Origin: Methanoregulaceae archaeon
GTDB lineage: Archaea > Halobacteriota > Methanomicrobia > Methanomicrobiales > Methanospirillaceae
Assembly (NCBI GenBank): GCA_015660965.1
Contig: JACTVG010000011.1
Location: 1 to 51,084, forward strand
Length of the DNA: 51,084 nt
Reading direction: 5' to 3'
Position 1 is the first letter of the stretch; each line of letters begins with the position of its first letter. Made by a program: the position numbers and the translations under genes. Positions 3,830-26,055 of the stretch are shown piece after piece. The notes beneath the pieces were generated by a model. The model ran no database searches and was not told where the DNA came from. It was given only the letters and a program-made list of their open reading frames with translations.

Positions 3830-4990
3830 CTACTTTGCAACGATCTTTTGTATTATTGTCATGATTCCTGGTTTAGCAGCTTTCCTAACTTTTGTTTGAA
3901 AGGTAGTCATTTCTATCATAGGCGATTCGAACATCTCTTTATTGAGTCGTTCAGTTATTTCATTGAAGATCCTCTTATAGGCAGTGCAGTATGGGTCGAC
4001 ACCTTTTATTTCACCACCACCAGTAGGTGCAATTGCATTGTAGGGACATCCGCCTCGACAATATTTGATGTGGGGGCAGTCCTTACATTCCCGATCCACG
4101 TACTCCTTAAATTGTTGCATAAGTTTCCCAGCGTTAGATTGGGCAAGATCTTCCTTGCTTGGATGGTCCTTCACATTGCCCATAATATATTCTGGCATAC
4201 CTACAAACCGATAGCATGGGTATATACTTCCATCCGGTCCAACCGCAAAGGTGTTCCCCATACAATCCACGAATGTGCAAACTGAACCCCGACGGGTGAA
4301 CACACATCTGCACAAGTCGTTAATATTCATAACTTCAATCTCACCCAAGTGTTCCAGATATTTATCCAGAAGATACACTAACAAATCTCCATACTCTTCT
4401 GGATCAAGTGCCCATTGCTTGGGATTTTCATTACGTAAAGATGGTAATGCGGGATGCAATTTAAGTGTTAAATCATTTTCTAGGAAATAATTGAATATAT
4501 CTTCCCTAAATTTTACAGAATACGAGGTGAAGGTGCAGATGAATCTTACATTTAGACCATGAGCCTTGGCAATTTCATAACCCCGCATGGTCTTCTCATA
4601 GTATCCGTTCCCTCTCTGCAGATCATTAAGTTCTTGAGGGCCATCTATACTGGACCCGATGGGAACATTATACTCAGCGAATATTTGGGCTAGTTCCGGG
4701 GTAAGTTTCCAAAGATTGGTTTGGATAGCAAATTCTGGTTTCAGATGACTTAGCCCCTCTGAAAGTAAAGGTAATGCCTTCCGATAAAAATCAGCACCAG
4801 CGAGAAGGGGTTCCCCGCCATGGAAGGTAAAGGTGACCCGATCTTCCCGGAAATTCTTAAGCCATTCAACCACATCTTTGATAGTTTCAATGCTCATGAT
4901 TGGAGATCCCTCCTCAGAACTCCAACAGTAACTACAATGAGAAGGACAGCCTAAAGTCGGTATTAACATTATATGAAAGGCATTTTTCAT
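3830..4990 (-). CDS. Radical SAM/SPASM peptide-modifying-type enzyme
   Basis: A 386-residue radical SAM protein. Cys15, Cys19 and Cys22 form the CX3CX2C cluster-binding motif (GCPSHCSYCW), followed by the GGEP motif near residue 60. A C-terminal SPASM-type region holds further cysteines: CRCVFTRR, the VCTFVDC segment, YPCYRF, then CKDCPHIKYCRGGCPYNA and a last Cys. This is the architecture of anaerobic sulfatase maturases and of enzymes that modify ribosomal peptides. I recall a methanogen-specific peptide-modifying subfamily of this type, but cannot verify membership. No obvious Cys-rich precursor gene lies immediately upstream; the 83-residue ORF downstream is the nearest small gene. The substrate is unknown. 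Confidence 0.85.
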   Translation of the reverse strand: MKNAFHIMLIPTLGCPSHCSYCWSSEEGSPIMSIETIKDVVEWLKNFREDRVTFTFHGGEPLLAGADFYRKALPLLSEGLSHLKPEFAIQTNLWKLTPELAQIFAEYNVPIGSSIDGPQELNDLQRGNGYYEKTMRGYEIAKAHGLNVRFICTFTSYSVKFREDIFNYFLENDLTLKLHPALPSLRNENPKQWALDPEEYGDLLVYLLDKYLEHLGEIEVMNINDLCRCVFTRRGSVCTFVDCMGNTFAVGPDGSIYPCYRFVGMPEYIMGNVKDHPSKEDLAQSNAGKLMQQFKEYVDRECKDCPHIKYCRGGCPYNAIAPTGGGEIKGVDPYCTAYKRIFNEITERLNKEMFESPMIEMTTFQTKVRKAAKPGIMTIIQKIVAK

Positions 4991-6648: not shown

Positions 6649-8250
6649 TTATGCGAGACTCCTTCGTTCTTCCTCATTTAGAATCGCCAGCACATCCGCT
6701 GTCTTTCCTATTTGAATAATTTTACCTCCTCGCATTAACGCAACCCGGTCGCAAATGTCTCGTACAAAGTCCATGTCATGAGAAACCACGATAAATGTCT
6801 CTTCAGACTCATCACGAGCATGCAGAATCGACTGCTTCACATCCTGTTTCGTGATCGGATCCATAGTGCCAGTTGGCTCATCAAGTATGACAATAGTTGG
6901 TTCATGAATGAGTACCTGTGCGAGAGCGACTCTGTGTCGTTCCCCATTACTTAGTTCACCAGGATATCGGTTCAGAATTTCTTTTGATTTCTCATCTGTG
7001 AATCCTGCCATACCTAGTGTATTGATTGCCTTTCGCTTTGCGAGTTCTTTGGGGAATTCCAATCCAATCGCATCGGTGAGATTGTCGAGCACCGTACGGT
7101 GTGGATAAAGATCATATTCCTGGTGTAGGAGACCGATGTATTCCTTTGCTCTCCCTCTTTGATCAATGCCAGGTTTGGTCATGTCAATCCAATCATCACC
7201 AATCCGGACATTCATTTCACCAGTTGTCGGTTCGATAATTCCGGCCATCATTCGAGAAAGCGTTGTCTTTCCAGAACCGCTCTTGCCGATGATTCCGAAG
7301 ATTTCTTTCTGTACGACATCAAAAGTAACAACGTTCACTGCTTTTACAACGCCACGATCGACCGAGAAGTAGCGCTTGGAAACATCCCTCGCTACTAGTA
7401 CTTTCTCACCAAATCCCTGAACATTTGTGTATGCCTCATTAGACTGATCCCTCACAAAAGAACGGATAACGTTGACTGGGGGGCCGATCTTTGCAATCTG
7501 GCCATCAACAAGGAGAATAGCCCGGTCTGCCATGGCCTCAATTACATTGGAGAAGTGCGATGTCACAACCATGCCCATTTTATTCTTTTTTGCCGCTTCT
7601 GTGAGCATGGTATGAACCAATCGTGCTGTTTCAGGGTCGAGTGTACCTGTGGGTTCATCAGCAAAAAGCATAGCCGGATTCTTGGCAAGTTGTCGAGCGA
7701 GTACAACCCGTTGTTTCTCACCGCCAGAAAGGTCGCGAGCAATGTGCATCATCCGATGCGAGAGTTTTACCTGATCGATCAGGTCGGCAGCACGATTAAT
7801 GGCGTGTTCTGTAGGATAATCAATATCATCGAGCGCATGAAGCACATTCTCTATCACCCTATCATTACCGTAGAGAGCGAATGTTCGCTGGAACATAATT
7901 GCAGTCCGTTGCATAACCCTGGATTTCATCCCGTCGTTCTGCTCGTCCCAAAGATCAACATCAGTTGCGATAAGGTTGCTCCCGCACTTTGGACATTTCT
8001 TTCCAACACGACTCGGTACATCTGTGTAATCACACTTGTTGCAGACAGCAACATGATAGATGACTGAGCCTTGTGTCGGCGGCTGTTCGATACCCCTAAG
8101 TAGGTGCATGAGCACACTTTTTCCCGCACCGCTCCTGCCAATCACGCCGATGATTTCACCTTCCGGTATTTCGAATGACACGTTATTGAGAACTCTGGTG
8201 CTGTCAAAGTCCATGCAGAGATTGTTCACGGTGATGAATGGCAATGGCAT
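6649..8250 (-). CDS. atwA: Methyl-coenzyme M reductase system component A2 (activation ATPase)
   Basis: A protein of ~533 residues with two complete ABC ATPase domains. The first Walker A is [14 protein letters not shown] (~residue 35), with signature LSGGEKQR and Walker [11 protein letters not shown]. The second Walker A is [14 protein letters not shown] (~320), with signature LSNGERHR and Walker [10 protein letters not shown]. Inserted in the first domain are two CXXC pairs (CNKCDY...CPKCGS), a zinc-finger-like feature typical of component A2. The protein drives ATP-dependent reductive activation of the nickel cofactor F430 of MCR. ATG at 8250 has GAGTGA spaced eight bases upstream; a GTG at 8262 would add four residues. 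Only 12-24 bases separate it from the small DUF5320-like gene, so the two are likely one transcript. Confidence 0.93.
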
Positions 8251-8274
8251 GGTTTCAGTCACTCTATACTATGT

Positions 8275-8421
8275 TTATTTAGCACGAGATTCTTCGTTCA
8301 ATAGCGAATCGGCATTTTGTGTATGACGCCGGCATTCATTAGTGCCATTTTTGCAAGGTCCTAGACCTCGTCCGACAATTCTTCCTCGTTTTAATGGTCC
8401 GGTTCCGTCAAAGTTCGGCAT
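8275..8421 (-). CDS. DUF5320-type small protein
   Basis: 48 residues. It opens with MPNFDGTGPLKRGRIVGRGL followed by GPCKN, the Gly-rich FDGTGP...GRGLGPC signature of small proteins commonly found beside DUF134 regulators and nitrogenase-cofactor-like genes in archaea. Two cysteines (CKNGTNEC) could bind metal. I use the ATG at 8421 because CGGAGTGAT sits four to five bases upstream; an open frame reaching to 8499 includes the promoter repeat and is not credible. It directly precedes atwA, linking a small metal-related protein to MCR activation. Function is unknown. The promoter contains the 23-bp repeat described at 8456-8478. Confidence 0.75.
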   Translation of the reverse strand: MPNFDGTGPLKRGRIVGRGLGPCKNGTNECRRHTQNADSLLNEESRAK

Positions 8422-8455: not shown

Positions 8456-8478
8456 ATAATTACACATATGCGCATAAA
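8456..8478 (-). promoter_or_regulatory. Operator-like 23-bp repeat, copy 1 (upstream of DUF5320-atwA)
   Basis: ATAATTACACATATGCGCAT plus AAA, identical to 9755-9777. It contains the perfect 10-bp palindrome TATGCGCATA. It lies 35 bases before the start codon at 8421, where a promoter or operator would be expected. The second copy is 30 bases before another start codon in the same orientation, so a shared transcription factor site or promoter element is the simplest reading. Confidence 0.65.
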
Positions 8479-8664
8479 GATTTTAGGTTCTTGCATCAAA
8501 AAGAGAAATTACGCGGAGGGCATGCATTTGTGCATCTCCCGGCACATTGACTACTGCCCTTCCGCGCTACGCTACTCATTCGGTATTTGACAGGATTTAC
8601 TTTGATCCGAATGCACTGATAACGATCTTCAATGCAGTCGGAAAAATTTTTAAGACCTGGCTAA
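8479..8664. other. Gap between DUF5320 and DUF134 genes with an inverted repeat
   Basis: It includes an imperfect hairpin at 8515-8539 (GGAG..ATGCA, TTTG loop, TGCAT..CTCC) followed by GC-rich sequence. This could terminate the upstream DUF134 transcript or be a second regulatory site. No coding potential was recognised. Confidence 0.35.
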
Positions 8665-9045
8665 TCAATCCAAGTTTTCATCTACCGGTAGACACTTCGG
8701 GCACAGGCCTTGCATCGCTTTCTTGCAGCCGGTCATCTCAATCTCCTTCCCATTAACGAGTGCATCGGCAATCTTCCGGCGGGCTTCGTGTAGATCTCGC
8801 CATGCTGTCTTGCGTGAAACCCCGAGTTTTTCAGCAGCCTCTTCCTGTTCGAATCCTTCTAGATCGATGAGCCGGATCAGTTCAATCTCTTCGGGCTTGA
8901 GCGAGATGCCTTCGCTTTTGTCATCAGAACAGCAGCAGGGCTTGTAGCACCGTGATTCAGAAGTACCATTGATGATACGACGGAGGCGGGGCCTACCTCG
9001 GCGGTGGCAGATATTAGTAGTATCATCCTGCATTATTGATCCCAT
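8665..9045 (-). CDS. DUF134-family DNA-binding regulator
   Basis: About 126 residues. An RRGRPRLRRI basic start and a cysteine cluster (CYKPCCCSDD, ~residues 33-42) precede the sigma-70 region-4-like helix-turn-helix: EIELIRLIDLEGFEQEEAAE, then KLGVSRKTAWRDLHEARRKI, at about residues 53-92. More cysteines follow near the C-terminus (MTGCKK and LCPKCLP). This is the DUF134 family, presumed transcription factors with a metal- or redox-responsive cysteine set. The start may instead be the ATG at 9033, which has GGGATC upstream. It sits between the two copies of the 23-bp repeat, making it a natural candidate regulator of both units. Target binding is inferred only. Confidence 0.85.
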   Translation of the reverse strand: MGSIMQDDTTNICHRRGRPRLRRIINGTSESRCYKPCCCSDDKSEGISLKPEEIELIRLIDLEGFEQEEAAEKLGVSRKTAWRDLHEARRKIADALVNGKEIEMTGCKKAMQGLCPKCLPVDENLD

Positions 9046-9200
9046 AACATTATCTGATTATTATTCCCACAAACTGCATTAAAGTGATCCAATATTTTGG
9101 GGACCCCCTCTGACACTTTTTAATTCTCTCTAAATTACCATACTGATTTTTCCATTAAAGCACCGAATAACAGGATTAAGAAACTGATCACTAATTGTCC

Positions 9201-9470
9201 TTAAAACCGTTTCGTGACCAGGTATCGGTATACTCTTGTTTTTCCTGTACCATATGTAGTGTGGGTACGGTCGATTTTTTTTATGATATATGGACAATAG
9301 TTGAACTTTCCACGTTCCAATCGCCGAAAAAACCCTGAAATAGTTGCACACTGATATCGCGTGAGATGAAACCGATCCCGAATCTCCCGAACTGTAATCC
9401 ATCGTTCAGTCTCTTTTGATTCCTGCATCAACTGTTCCAGCAAATGAGGAATGGTGAGATGATTGATCAT
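9201..9470 (-). CDS. Small winged-helix-like protein, 89 residues
   Basis: Not a named family I can confirm. Residues ~23-55 look like a helix-turn-helix (RWITVREIRDRFHLTRYQCA...GFFRRLERG), followed by a basic beta-wing-like segment (FNYCPYIIKKIDRTH, TTYGTGKTRVYRYLV). The protein is basic, consistent with DNA binding. No ribosome binding site is evident. It lies 54 bases downstream of the cysteine-rich peptide gene on the same strand and could be its partner or autoregulator. Confidence 0.6.
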   Translation of the reverse strand: MINHLTIPHLLEQLMQESKETERWITVREIRDRFHLTRYQCATISGFFRRLERGKFNYCPYIIKKIDRTHTTYGTGKTRVYRYLVTKRF

Positions 9471-9524
9471 GGTACAAACACGTTATTCAGAAATTCGCTA
9501 TCAAATACATGTACGTAACTTCAA

Positions 9525-9725
9525 TCACCGACATAACTTTTCGTTTTCACAGCAGGAGACATCTTCATCTGACAATAGGCATATGCAGGGTTTGTGTGTG
9601 CCGGCGGATTTTTCTGTCTGGTGCTGTGAATGGTTATCACACCCACATGTTTGTGTGATATTGCAGTCACACGAATTCTGTGTTTTTGAGCTCTTGTTTG
9701 ATGCATTTATGTTAGCTTTTTGCAT
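9525..9725 (-). CDS. Cysteine-rich small peptide, 66 residues
   Basis: A short protein with ten cysteines arranged mostly as CXC or CC: SCDCNITQTCGCD, PCIC, SCCENEKLC. The N-terminus (MQKANINASNKSSKTQN) is polar, and there is no signal peptide or membrane segment. A GGTGATTCA ribosome binding site precedes the ATG. The gene has the exact 23-bp promoter repeat 30 bases upstream of its start, the same position as in the DUF5320-atwA unit, which is the strongest argument that it is real. The CXC/CC pattern suggests metal binding (metallothionein-like) or a modified peptide. The small winged-helix gene follows. Function is unknown. Confidence 0.55.
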   Translation of the reverse strand: MQKANINASNKSSKTQNSCDCNITQTCGCDNHSQHQTEKSAGTHKPCICLLSDEDVSCCENEKLCR

Positions 9726-9754
9726 TGAATCACCAATTGCATGTTTAAAGCACT

Positions 9755-9777
9755 ATAATTACACATATGCGCATAAA
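9755..9777 (-). promoter_or_regulatory. Operator-like 23-bp repeat, copy 2 (upstream of the Cys-rich peptide)
   Basis: Identical over 23 bases to 8456-8478, with the TATGCGCATA palindrome at 9766-9775. It is 30 bases upstream of the ATG at 9725. Flanking sequence differs between the copies, so the shared block is bounded and not part of a longer duplication. Confidence 0.65.
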
Positions 9778-10166
9778 TCATTTAAACTATAACACTCTGA
9801 CATCGCGGTCACTAAGCTATCTACATTAGTAAACGTGTGCAAAGAGAGAATTTCTCTAGAATTATAACTCAAATTAGCCACGAAAATAAAGATCTTGAAC
9901 CTTTATCCAATTTTCCAAAATATGGACTTCTTAAAGACAGATCTTAGTCATGTTACTATCTTGTTTGGATCAAATACCACGCAATGTTAATTACAAGACT
10001 AATGATACCAATAATCCATGAATTGAAGTTTAATTTATCTCGCGATAACCCGAAAGATAGCATACGAGACGCTAGCTTAGATTAAAATTTAATTTCTCTA
10101 TTTTCTCAAAACTAACTACTGTAGCAAACCTTATTTTTCTGGATGTATAGCTCTCTTTGATAATTT
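9778..10166. other. AT-rich intergenic region
   Basis: About 390 bases with stop codons in all frames. I see no tRNA, hairpin-plus-T-run terminator or ribosome binding site other than the elements of its neighbours. It separates the divergent Cys-rich peptide gene from the 53-residue gene. Confidence 0.5.
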
Positions 10167-10627: not shown

Positions 10628-12316
10628 TTATCTTGCCGGAATAATTAGAGAGCGTTCTCCCGAGGGCATGAACTCGCGGATAGCACCCTTTGCGAACTCG
10701 CGGCGTATTTCTGAGAAGTCGAACGTGAGCGATGGGTCGGCGAATGTGACCTTGATCAACGGGGACAGCGCCCATGCATCGTGACGTGCAATGTGTGCAG
10801 CGCCTGCGATACCGGCATATCCTCCCTGGTGACCGACATTCATCGCGTAGTTCGGGTAGTTCGGGCCACGGAGTTCTCCGAGCAATCCCTCATCTGAACG
10901 GTAAGACAACGTGTTTGCGGAACCACACTGATCCTGCAGATCGTAGCCGTAGAATCCGAGACGTGACCAGCCTTCCTTGTGCAGGAGCATCGACATGTAC
11001 CAAGCATTCAATCCAGCGTTGGAGTTAGCAGTTGCTAGTGCAGCTGTGACACCCGATGCGGCGGCAAGAACCGTCGCACGCTGGGATCCTCCAAAGTGGT
11101 CTTCGAGGGTGGTTGGGAACTGTTCGTATTGCTCCATACCATAGAGCGTAACCTCGGTTGCGATGTCGTTGCAGACGTCTTGGGTTGCCTTTGTCTGTGC
11201 AAGTCCCTTGTATTTTTGTTTGACGTAGTCAACACCATACGAGGTGAAGTCATCAAGGATGTTGTCAGTGTAGGCGGCGGTTGCATACTGAGTGAACCCG
11301 ACACCACCGGACATGTAAGAGCCGAGCCAAATCTGGTCGAACAGCATACATCCAGCGGCAACGATTTCAAGGGATGACCTTACCGGGTCGTTCGGGTACT
11401 TGCGGTCTGATTGAACCATATCGGCGAAGTGTCCGAACTTGATACCACCGGGTTCGTTGGGTCCACGGGCACGGCGAGCTGGTAAAATAGTTGCCATCTC
11501 AACCATACCGGCGTGCTTAGCTGTGAATGCTAGATCGGCGACTGCTGCTTCACCAGCACACATGTGGTAAGCACCGATGAATGACATACCAATCTGCATC
11601 GCAGACCATCTTGAGGTAGTACCACCATCACAGGTACGACTAACGATGGTCGGGATGTGGATTGCTTGGTACATCGATTTGCCGAGTGCAGCCTTGAGCG
11701 ACTCTGCACTCTTCTTCGGGAAGAGCTTGTCGAGATTGAGTACGAATTGGGGTTCAAGATCGTCTGCCATCTCGTCGTCGCCAGTGAAGACCTTAACATA
11801 ACAGTCATCACATAGCGCCGGGTGGGTCTCGACCATGTGCTCCTGAACGACTGCCGCACCGGGCATTGCGTGGTTGAGCACGTGGAGATACTCGTTGATG
11901 GTTTCCGGGGTGACCTCCTTGCCTAGACGCTTCTGGAGAGTCTGGTGTGCGAGGTCAAGTCCGACAATAATGGTCCTGCGGATATCGTCCCACATCTGCT
12001 GCATCGCAGCATTGTTGACGAAGTGTAGATCGTCACCCTCAGCAAAGACGCCAGTTGTGCTGACCTCATAGGGAGTCAGCTTGCGCTGTCCGAGCGGGAT
12101 ACCGCCAATGTGACAGCGAACGGGGTCGTATGCCGAGATACCGCGCTCCATGGCAACTGTTTGTCCCTCTTTTACAAATTCCATCTTACGTGGGGACTGC
12201 TTAAGACCCAAACGGAGATACGTTGTTCTCTGGGACTCTGGATCCTCTTGGAACTTATCCCTCATTGCCTTAAGGAACAGTTTCTGGGTTCTTTCAATTT
12301 TTGCTTTTGCTGCCAT
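10628..12316 (-). CDS. mcrA: Methyl-coenzyme M reductase alpha subunit
   Basis: 562 residues, the full-length catalytic subunit that forms methane from methyl-CoM and CoB at nickel cofactor F430. Matching motifs to the Methanothermobacter enzyme from memory, Gln158 (AAVVQEH) would be the axial nickel ligand and Tyr344 (FTQYATAAY) an active-site tyrosine. The sites of modification are present: His268 (AKHAG), Arg282 ([13 protein letters not shown]), Gln412 (GGSQRA), Gly457 for thioglycine (GFYGYDL) and Cys464 (QDQCG). Whether each is modified cannot be seen. It is the last gene of mcrBDCGA, six bases after mcrG, and ends before an oligo-T terminator. High G+C codon use compared with flanking DNA suits a highly expressed gene. 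Confidence 0.98.
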
Positions 12317-25902: not shown

Positions 25903-26055
25903 TATTTTTTAAATTAGTAAACTTAGTCATTGGTAAATGTTAATTTCTTTTATTTTACTTTTTGCCCTATTTTTTATGCGCTAAAAATTCTTAGATTAAT
26001 TTAGAAAATTTATTCTATAGTTATCATTCAACTGTTGTGGTACCGGAGGTTATTT

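Follow-up and report, generated by a model that had tools for sequence, protein, structure and literature searches.

MsvR is a methanogen-specific, autoregulatory protein that binds DNA near the TATA box or the transcription start in a cysteine-dependent manner and blocks TBP/TFB or the polymerase (PMC3729527). Tfx, the regulator of fmdECB in Methanothermobacter, is encoded beside its target and binds downstream of the promoter, and it is suggested to be an activator (PMC3087415). In Desulfovibrio, the Mrp/NBP35-type protein MrpORP delivers Fe-S clusters to the orange-protein (ORP) complex, and the ORP operons use sigma54 together with a cognate regulator (PMC6345978). A structural description of the MCR activation complex, including its component A2 and its nitrogenase-type L-clusters, appeared in 2025 (PMC12176620), and no study on the control of its synthesis was found in the literature searched. 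Within the same search, the DUF134/UPF0251/COG1342 family (PF02001) had no described function, target or regulatory study. Nothing informative was found on DUF5320 or on the regulation of atwA, most subscription journals being outside the search.

The DNA analyzed here (the window) is a stretch of 51,084 nucleotides from a Methanoregulaceae archaeon; genome records of its genus bear the name Methanoregula sp. On the minus strand, the mcr operon (mcrA at 10628-12316, with mcrG, mcrC and mcrD upstream of mcrA, as read from translations; mcrA is single in this genome) is followed by site B, a Cys-rich ORF of 66 aa (9525..9725), a gene for an 89-aa winged-helix-like protein without a Pfam match (9201..9470), the gene for a DUF134 (PF02001/UPF0251) HTH protein of 126 aa (8665..9045), site A, a gene for a DUF5320-like protein of 48 aa starting with MPNFDGTGPLKRG (8275..8421; PF17253, 6.5e-8) and a second atwA paralogue encoding MCR component A2 (6649..8262; TIGR03269, 3.6e-256). 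The gene names DUF5320 and DUF134 given in a first reading of the sequence (the original prediction) agree with Pfam, and atwA agrees with NCBIfam. Close to atwA, at 3830-4990, the translation of a radical-SAM gene displays extra C-terminal cysteine clusters, and its product resembles an anaerobic sulfatase-maturase-type enzyme. Sites A (8456..8478) and B (9755..9777) are identical copies of the 23-mer ATAATTACACATATGCGCATAAA, which reads TTTATGCGCATATGTGTAATTAT on the minus strand; as the original prediction had noted, they precede two minus-strand start codons, the 3′ end of copy A lying 34 bp from the ATG of the DUF5320-like gene and that of copy B lying 29 bp from the ATG of the Cys-rich ORF. 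We propose, with a probability of about three in four, that both 23-mers are operators of the DUF134 regulator encoded between them, which would be an autorepressor that also governs the second atwA.

In the archaeon's own genome (2,428,622 bases, 99.9% complete), a search allowing up to three mismatches found the 23-mer at these two places only; the repeat is not scattered, and no third copy exists at this stringency in the 2.43 Mb. The TATGCGCATA core (8467-8476 and 9766-9775) is likewise restricted to the two places in a whole-genome search. First-order Markov expectations are about 2e-7 copies for the 23-mer and about 1.9 copies for the 10-mer, so the count of the latter alone is unremarkable. 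The nine bases TTTATGCGC near ftr, which had been taken as a further hint of the regulon, sit at 25973-25981 (formerly given as 25974-25982) and do not extend to a longer motif match; this is a chance occurrence, and an ftr-linked site was rejected.

For comparison with relatives, a search motif, TATGCNCATATGNGTAATWAT, was derived and applied with at most two mismatches, the same pattern reversed serving as a control. The motif was detected in 87/108 genomes of the family and 148/232 genomes of the order Methanomicrobiales, and the control was nearly empty in the same genomes. When 84,980 prokaryote species were scanned for exact matches, 60 stretches were obtained, of which 57 belong to Methanomicrobiales (their records bear the names Methanoregula, Methanolinea, Methanogenium or Methanoculleus, or assign them in some other way to Methanomicrobiales, Methanoregulaceae or Methanomicrobiaceae); the remaining three correspond to chance level, which we estimate at roughly four from the pattern length. 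Beyond the order, matches in 30 of 309 genomes of the phylum, all but one with two mismatches, were taken as background. TATGCACATATGAGCTATAAT-type sequences, which are possibly the sites of another regulator, occur in three genomes of one genus outside the order (G270, G298 and G245, family f16), twice in G270.

The genes behind the site belong to few classes. Behind 183 unique sites, the first genes encode DUF5320 proteins (81), NifX-type proteins (45), Cys-rich peptides (29), AtwA directly (9) and DUF169 proteins (4), the remainder falling into a few other classes with only 7/183 unclassified, and a recognised regulon gene lies within 650 bp of the site in 176 of the 183 cases. By Pfam name, the targets include Nitro_FeMo-Co (PF02579), NUBPL/Mrp-type ParA (PF10609), DUF169 and DUF5320; a further type is a MinD-type ATPase with an inserted 4Fe-4S ferredoxin. 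In relatives, the site recurs before DUF5320-atwA, before Cys-rich genes and before NifX/MinD genes, and its presence follows DUF134, which supports the small regulon of the original prediction. Their DUF5320-atwA sites mostly read TTTATGCTCATATG(T/C)GTAATAAT, and their Cys-rich-peptide sites mostly read TTTATGCGCATATGAGTAATTAT. In the window, the first gene after site B, the Cys-rich ORF, occupies the position that the HTCACGE...CCCG peptide has in relatives, but a comparison with shuffled sequences, in which it ranked 5 of 2001, gave weak support for homology and did not establish it. Beyond Methanoregulaceae, the genes are typically ordered NifX-MinD-MinD-DUF134-[site]-DUF5320, without atwA and without the winged helix, as exemplified by Methanogenium marinum DSM 15558 (locus L210), where DUF5320 is tandem-duplicated together with its operator (L210:7163-8170), both sites being identical. 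Elsewhere, an operator-like site with two mismatches (L072:1176) stands some 400 bp upstream of a gene whose product looks, by eye, like form III RuBisCO. A genome-wide search found no PF02579 gene in the window genome, and the regulon is therefore reduced there to the DUF134 operon and DUF5320-atwA, both of which adjoin the only mcr operon of the genome.

With regard to the protein that binds the site, DUF134 is the likely candidate. The window protein scores 77.1 bits against a Pfam cut-off of 27 (1.6e-21) and is the only one in its genome; DUF134 genes are present in 176/232 genomes of the order. Among near-complete genomes (at least 90%), sites occur in 97/121 with DUF134 versus 1/14 without, counts that come from related genomes, for which Fisher p-values overstate the evidence. 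The 24 near-complete DUF134-bearing genomes without a site at this stringency imply that certain members of the family bind a diverged sequence or have no such site at all, and one genome (G033) has no DUF134, yet carries one weak site before DUF169. A matrix trained on the Methanomicrobiales sites was applied outside the order to 15 DUF134 loci of a family (f8) that we take to be Methanosarcinaceae. The best matrix window among about 6,500 fell within 130 bp before DUF134 in nine of the 15 loci; column-shuffled matrices reached a mean of 1.5 loci, and 1 of 500 was as high as nine. Counted by genus, the result is 4/9, with 23 of 500 shuffles as high. In one genus, the match CTCATATGAGTA / CTCATATGAGTAAGAAT lies directly 3′ of the TATA box. 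The co-occurrence with sites and the matrix result together point to DUF134 as the likely binder of the predicted operator. Many genomes hold two or three DUF134 paralogues; in L065, L070, L075 and L076, an RCYKPCCC type encoded next to atwA coexists with an RCYAPQC type encoded next to NifX/MinD, and the former may prefer GCTC sites and the latter GCGC sites.

The HTH core of DUF134 was modelled by AlphaFold with pLDDT above 90, and its best fold match in Foldseek is SigR region 4; a sequence search of solved structures returned designed TIM barrels and generic HTHs only, with no informative DUF134 relative. R10 R11 G12 R13 P14 R15 are invariant in 27 DUF134 sequences, and this RRGRPR start resembles an AT-hook. 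As for the DNA, putative TATA-like elements lie just 5′ of operators A (CCTAAAAT, 8480..8487, minus strand) and B (TTTAAATG, 9779..9786, minus strand). In 173 unique sites, an A/T-rich TTTAA is conserved at −10 to −6 before the 21-mer (T at −9, 83%; A at −7, 87%; A at −6, 71%), a signal that is unbiased because the flanks stood outside the search pattern, and we infer that it represents the TATA box. CATATG is at least 98% conserved at every base of these sites. Some sites form perfect 16-bp palindromes about CATATG (TTACTCATATGAGTAA), and most atwA-linked sites of relatives show TATGCTCATA in place of TATGCGCATA, which breaks the TATGCGCATA palindrome. TATGCKCATA, the centre previously assumed, keeps four of five pairs, the middle pair being broken in about half of the sites. 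The TATGCGCATA core has therefore proved to be part of a conserved site, but the palindrome is longer than first described and its dyad is probably centred on CATATG.

Based on these features, a protein bound to the operator just downstream of the TATA-like element would cover the stretch between the TATA box and the transcription start. DUF134, probably as a dimer, would read the GC-N-CATATG-N-G core by its sigma-region-4-like HTH, and its AT-hook-like arm would contact the A/T-rich ends. RNA polymerase would thereby be blocked both at the operon that encodes DUF134 itself, along with the Cys-rich ORF and the winged helix, and at DUF5320-atwA. Repression is the most likely action by analogy, since the site lies between the TATA box and the start in an autoregulated operon, as in the case of MsvR.

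Activation from the same site, as thought for Tfx, is the less probable action of DUF134, perhaps a one-in-several prospect. Its HTH resembles sigma region 4, which contacts the polymerase in bacteria, and this likeness would suit an activator; archaeal regulators bound between the TATA box and the start, however, usually block the polymerase, and the site is placed between the TATA box and the likely start, which is suggestive of repression, short of proof. Tfx too binds downstream of its target promoter (PMC3087415), but the DUF134 operon itself carries the site, an arrangement typical of autorepressors that is again suggestive rather than conclusive.

It is rather improbable that the 89-aa winged-helix protein of the same operon, instead of DUF134, binds the site. 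Its gene comes directly after the first gene of operator B, and all 43 genomes with the winged helix have sites. These are, however, only 43 of the 232 genomes of the order and 6 of 40 genera, and 105 genomes have sites without any winged helix. Among genomes of at least 90% completeness that lack the winged helix, DUF134 still predicts the site (70/94 with DUF134 versus 1/14 without), and related sites precede DUF134 in Methanosarcinaceae. The winged-helix family is often multi-copy near the atwA cluster, some copies having internal stops (G036:C60:1300, G047:C56:39332, G065:C1:463024).

The site would be a general promoter or mRNA-leader element of the lineage, not an operator, with a likelihood that we consider slight. 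It usually adjoins a TATA-like element at a short distance before start codons, as such an element would, but it occurs at two promoters only in the genome and before the same few gene families elsewhere. Besides, the promoter of the canonical atwA shows an ordinary TATA box but lacks the site, and the site is missing from almost all near-complete genomes without DUF134. Two exactly identical copies 1.3 kb apart could also stem from chance, from a mobile repeat or from recent duplication, but such an origin is very improbable given the expectation of about 2e-7 exact 23-mer copies, the different flanks, on which the original prediction had also relied, and the conservation of both positions over many genera with the variants GCTC and GCGC.

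Regarding the target relevant to methanogenesis, the computational analysis separates two AtwA paralogues. The site-linked AtwA scores 850.8 bits for TIGR03269 against an equivalog cut-off of 517.1 and contains the Walker A motifs GRSGAGKS and GKSGSGKT. The canonical atwA (G000:C70:190738-192336, locus L215) is 76% identical, is preceded by its own TATA box without an operator, and has GKT in Walker A where the site-linked copy has GKS. Only two differences between the paralogues are fixed, T49S in Walker A and L294V. Upstream of the site-bearing atwA group, the best motif match has 0-4 mismatches and is mostly located at 88-247 bp, whereas the canonical group mostly shows 7-9 mismatches, which is background. 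In the tree, the Methanoregula-type site-bearing AtwA group together in a single supported clade (18 rows, 100/96), and a few other site-bearing copies branch outside it. In 47 Methanoregula-type genomes (the genus of the window plus the largest related genus, g11), at least two atwA genes are present in 35/38 with DUF134 versus 2/9 without, indicating that the second atwA tends to be present or absent along with DUF134; the two DUF134-negative genomes with at least two atwA are incomplete and do carry sites. Both paralogues retain the Walker motifs and a CxxC...CxxC zinc ribbon (one canonical row excepted), and the regulated AtwA therefore looks functional from its sequence. A Zur-type zinc-sparing paralogue swap was rejected because the regulated AtwA still has the zinc ribbon. 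The small regulon of the original prediction is supported in its sites, targets and co-occurrence with DUF134, and it has to be amended in that the controlled MCR-activating ATPase is the second paralogue. In other Methanomicrobiales, the same site would control NifX-type (Nitro_FeMo-Co), MinD-ferredoxin, Mrp/NBP35, DUF5320 and DUF169 genes; in Methanoregula-type genomes, the second atwA would have joined this regulon, so that the capacity for MCR activation would be inducible in part, with the canonical atwA remaining outside.

The cysteines of DUF134 are near-invariant at Cys33, Cys38, Cys107 and Cys115, with Cys118 mostly kept, and they could hold a metal or an Fe-S cluster. AlphaFold confidence is low at the cysteine-bearing ends, and a search for a metal site in the model was given up because these ends are too uncertain. 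Release of DUF134 from the operator would follow a change at its cysteines, be it the loss or gain of a metal, of an Fe-S cluster or of a redox state; a signal of Fe-S, metal or redox status would fit both the cysteines and the Fe-S target genes. That a second MCR-activation ATPase is placed under a cysteine-based, sigma-region-4-like sensor of this kind and raised on demand together with Fe-S carriers is a tentative reading, to which we give somewhat less than even odds. If it is true, there would be a direct transcriptional link from Fe-S supply to the activation of methanogenesis, and a first function would be assigned to the DUF134 family. In any case, the analysis points to a specific operator, a regulator family so far without function and a specific second atwA paralogue. 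It would offer a reason for the two atwA genes of some methanogens and would join an unexplained set of anaerobe genes (DUF134, DUF5320, NifX-type and MinD-ferredoxin) in one regulon. Cultured species carry the system; Methanogenium marinum, for instance, has the DUF134/NifX/MinD part.

Compared with the described systems, the window protein is a member of the DUF134/UPF0251/COG1342 family by Pfam score, with the RGRP motif and a sigma70-r4-like HTH, and differs from the family as described in having a proposed target site, which is new as far as the literature searched extends. The MsvR operator, TTCGN7-9CGAA (PMC3729527), is absent from TTTATGCGCATATGTGTAATTAT, which contains neither TTCG nor CGAA, and MsvR belongs to another protein family; an MsvR site was therefore rejected. 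The likeness to Tfx lies in the location of the gene next to its target and of the site downstream of the promoter. Among solved structures, Foldseek also matched the DUF134 HTH to 8hno, an "archaeal transcription factor" that may be Tfx, with 36% identity in an alignment of 47 columns. On the other hand, the window protein gave no Tfx-specific Pfam match, matching DUF134 and generic HTH/sigma-r4 profiles only, and DUF134 is distinguished from Tfx by its own profile, AT-hook-like arm and cysteines. Its predicted targets are Fe-S and MCR-activation genes, in contrast to the formylmethanofuran dehydrogenase genes targeted by Tfx. ORP-like protein types (NifX-type, MinD with a ferredoxin domain and Mrp/NBP35) are found among the DUF134-site targets elsewhere in the order, but the operator here is a proposed archaeal DUF134 operator, unlike the ORP operons, and NifX-type genes are absent from the window genome. 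HTH regulators that act on operators in the promoters they control are a known kind of system, whereas the regulator family, its operator and the connection to MCR activation appear to be new in the literature searched.
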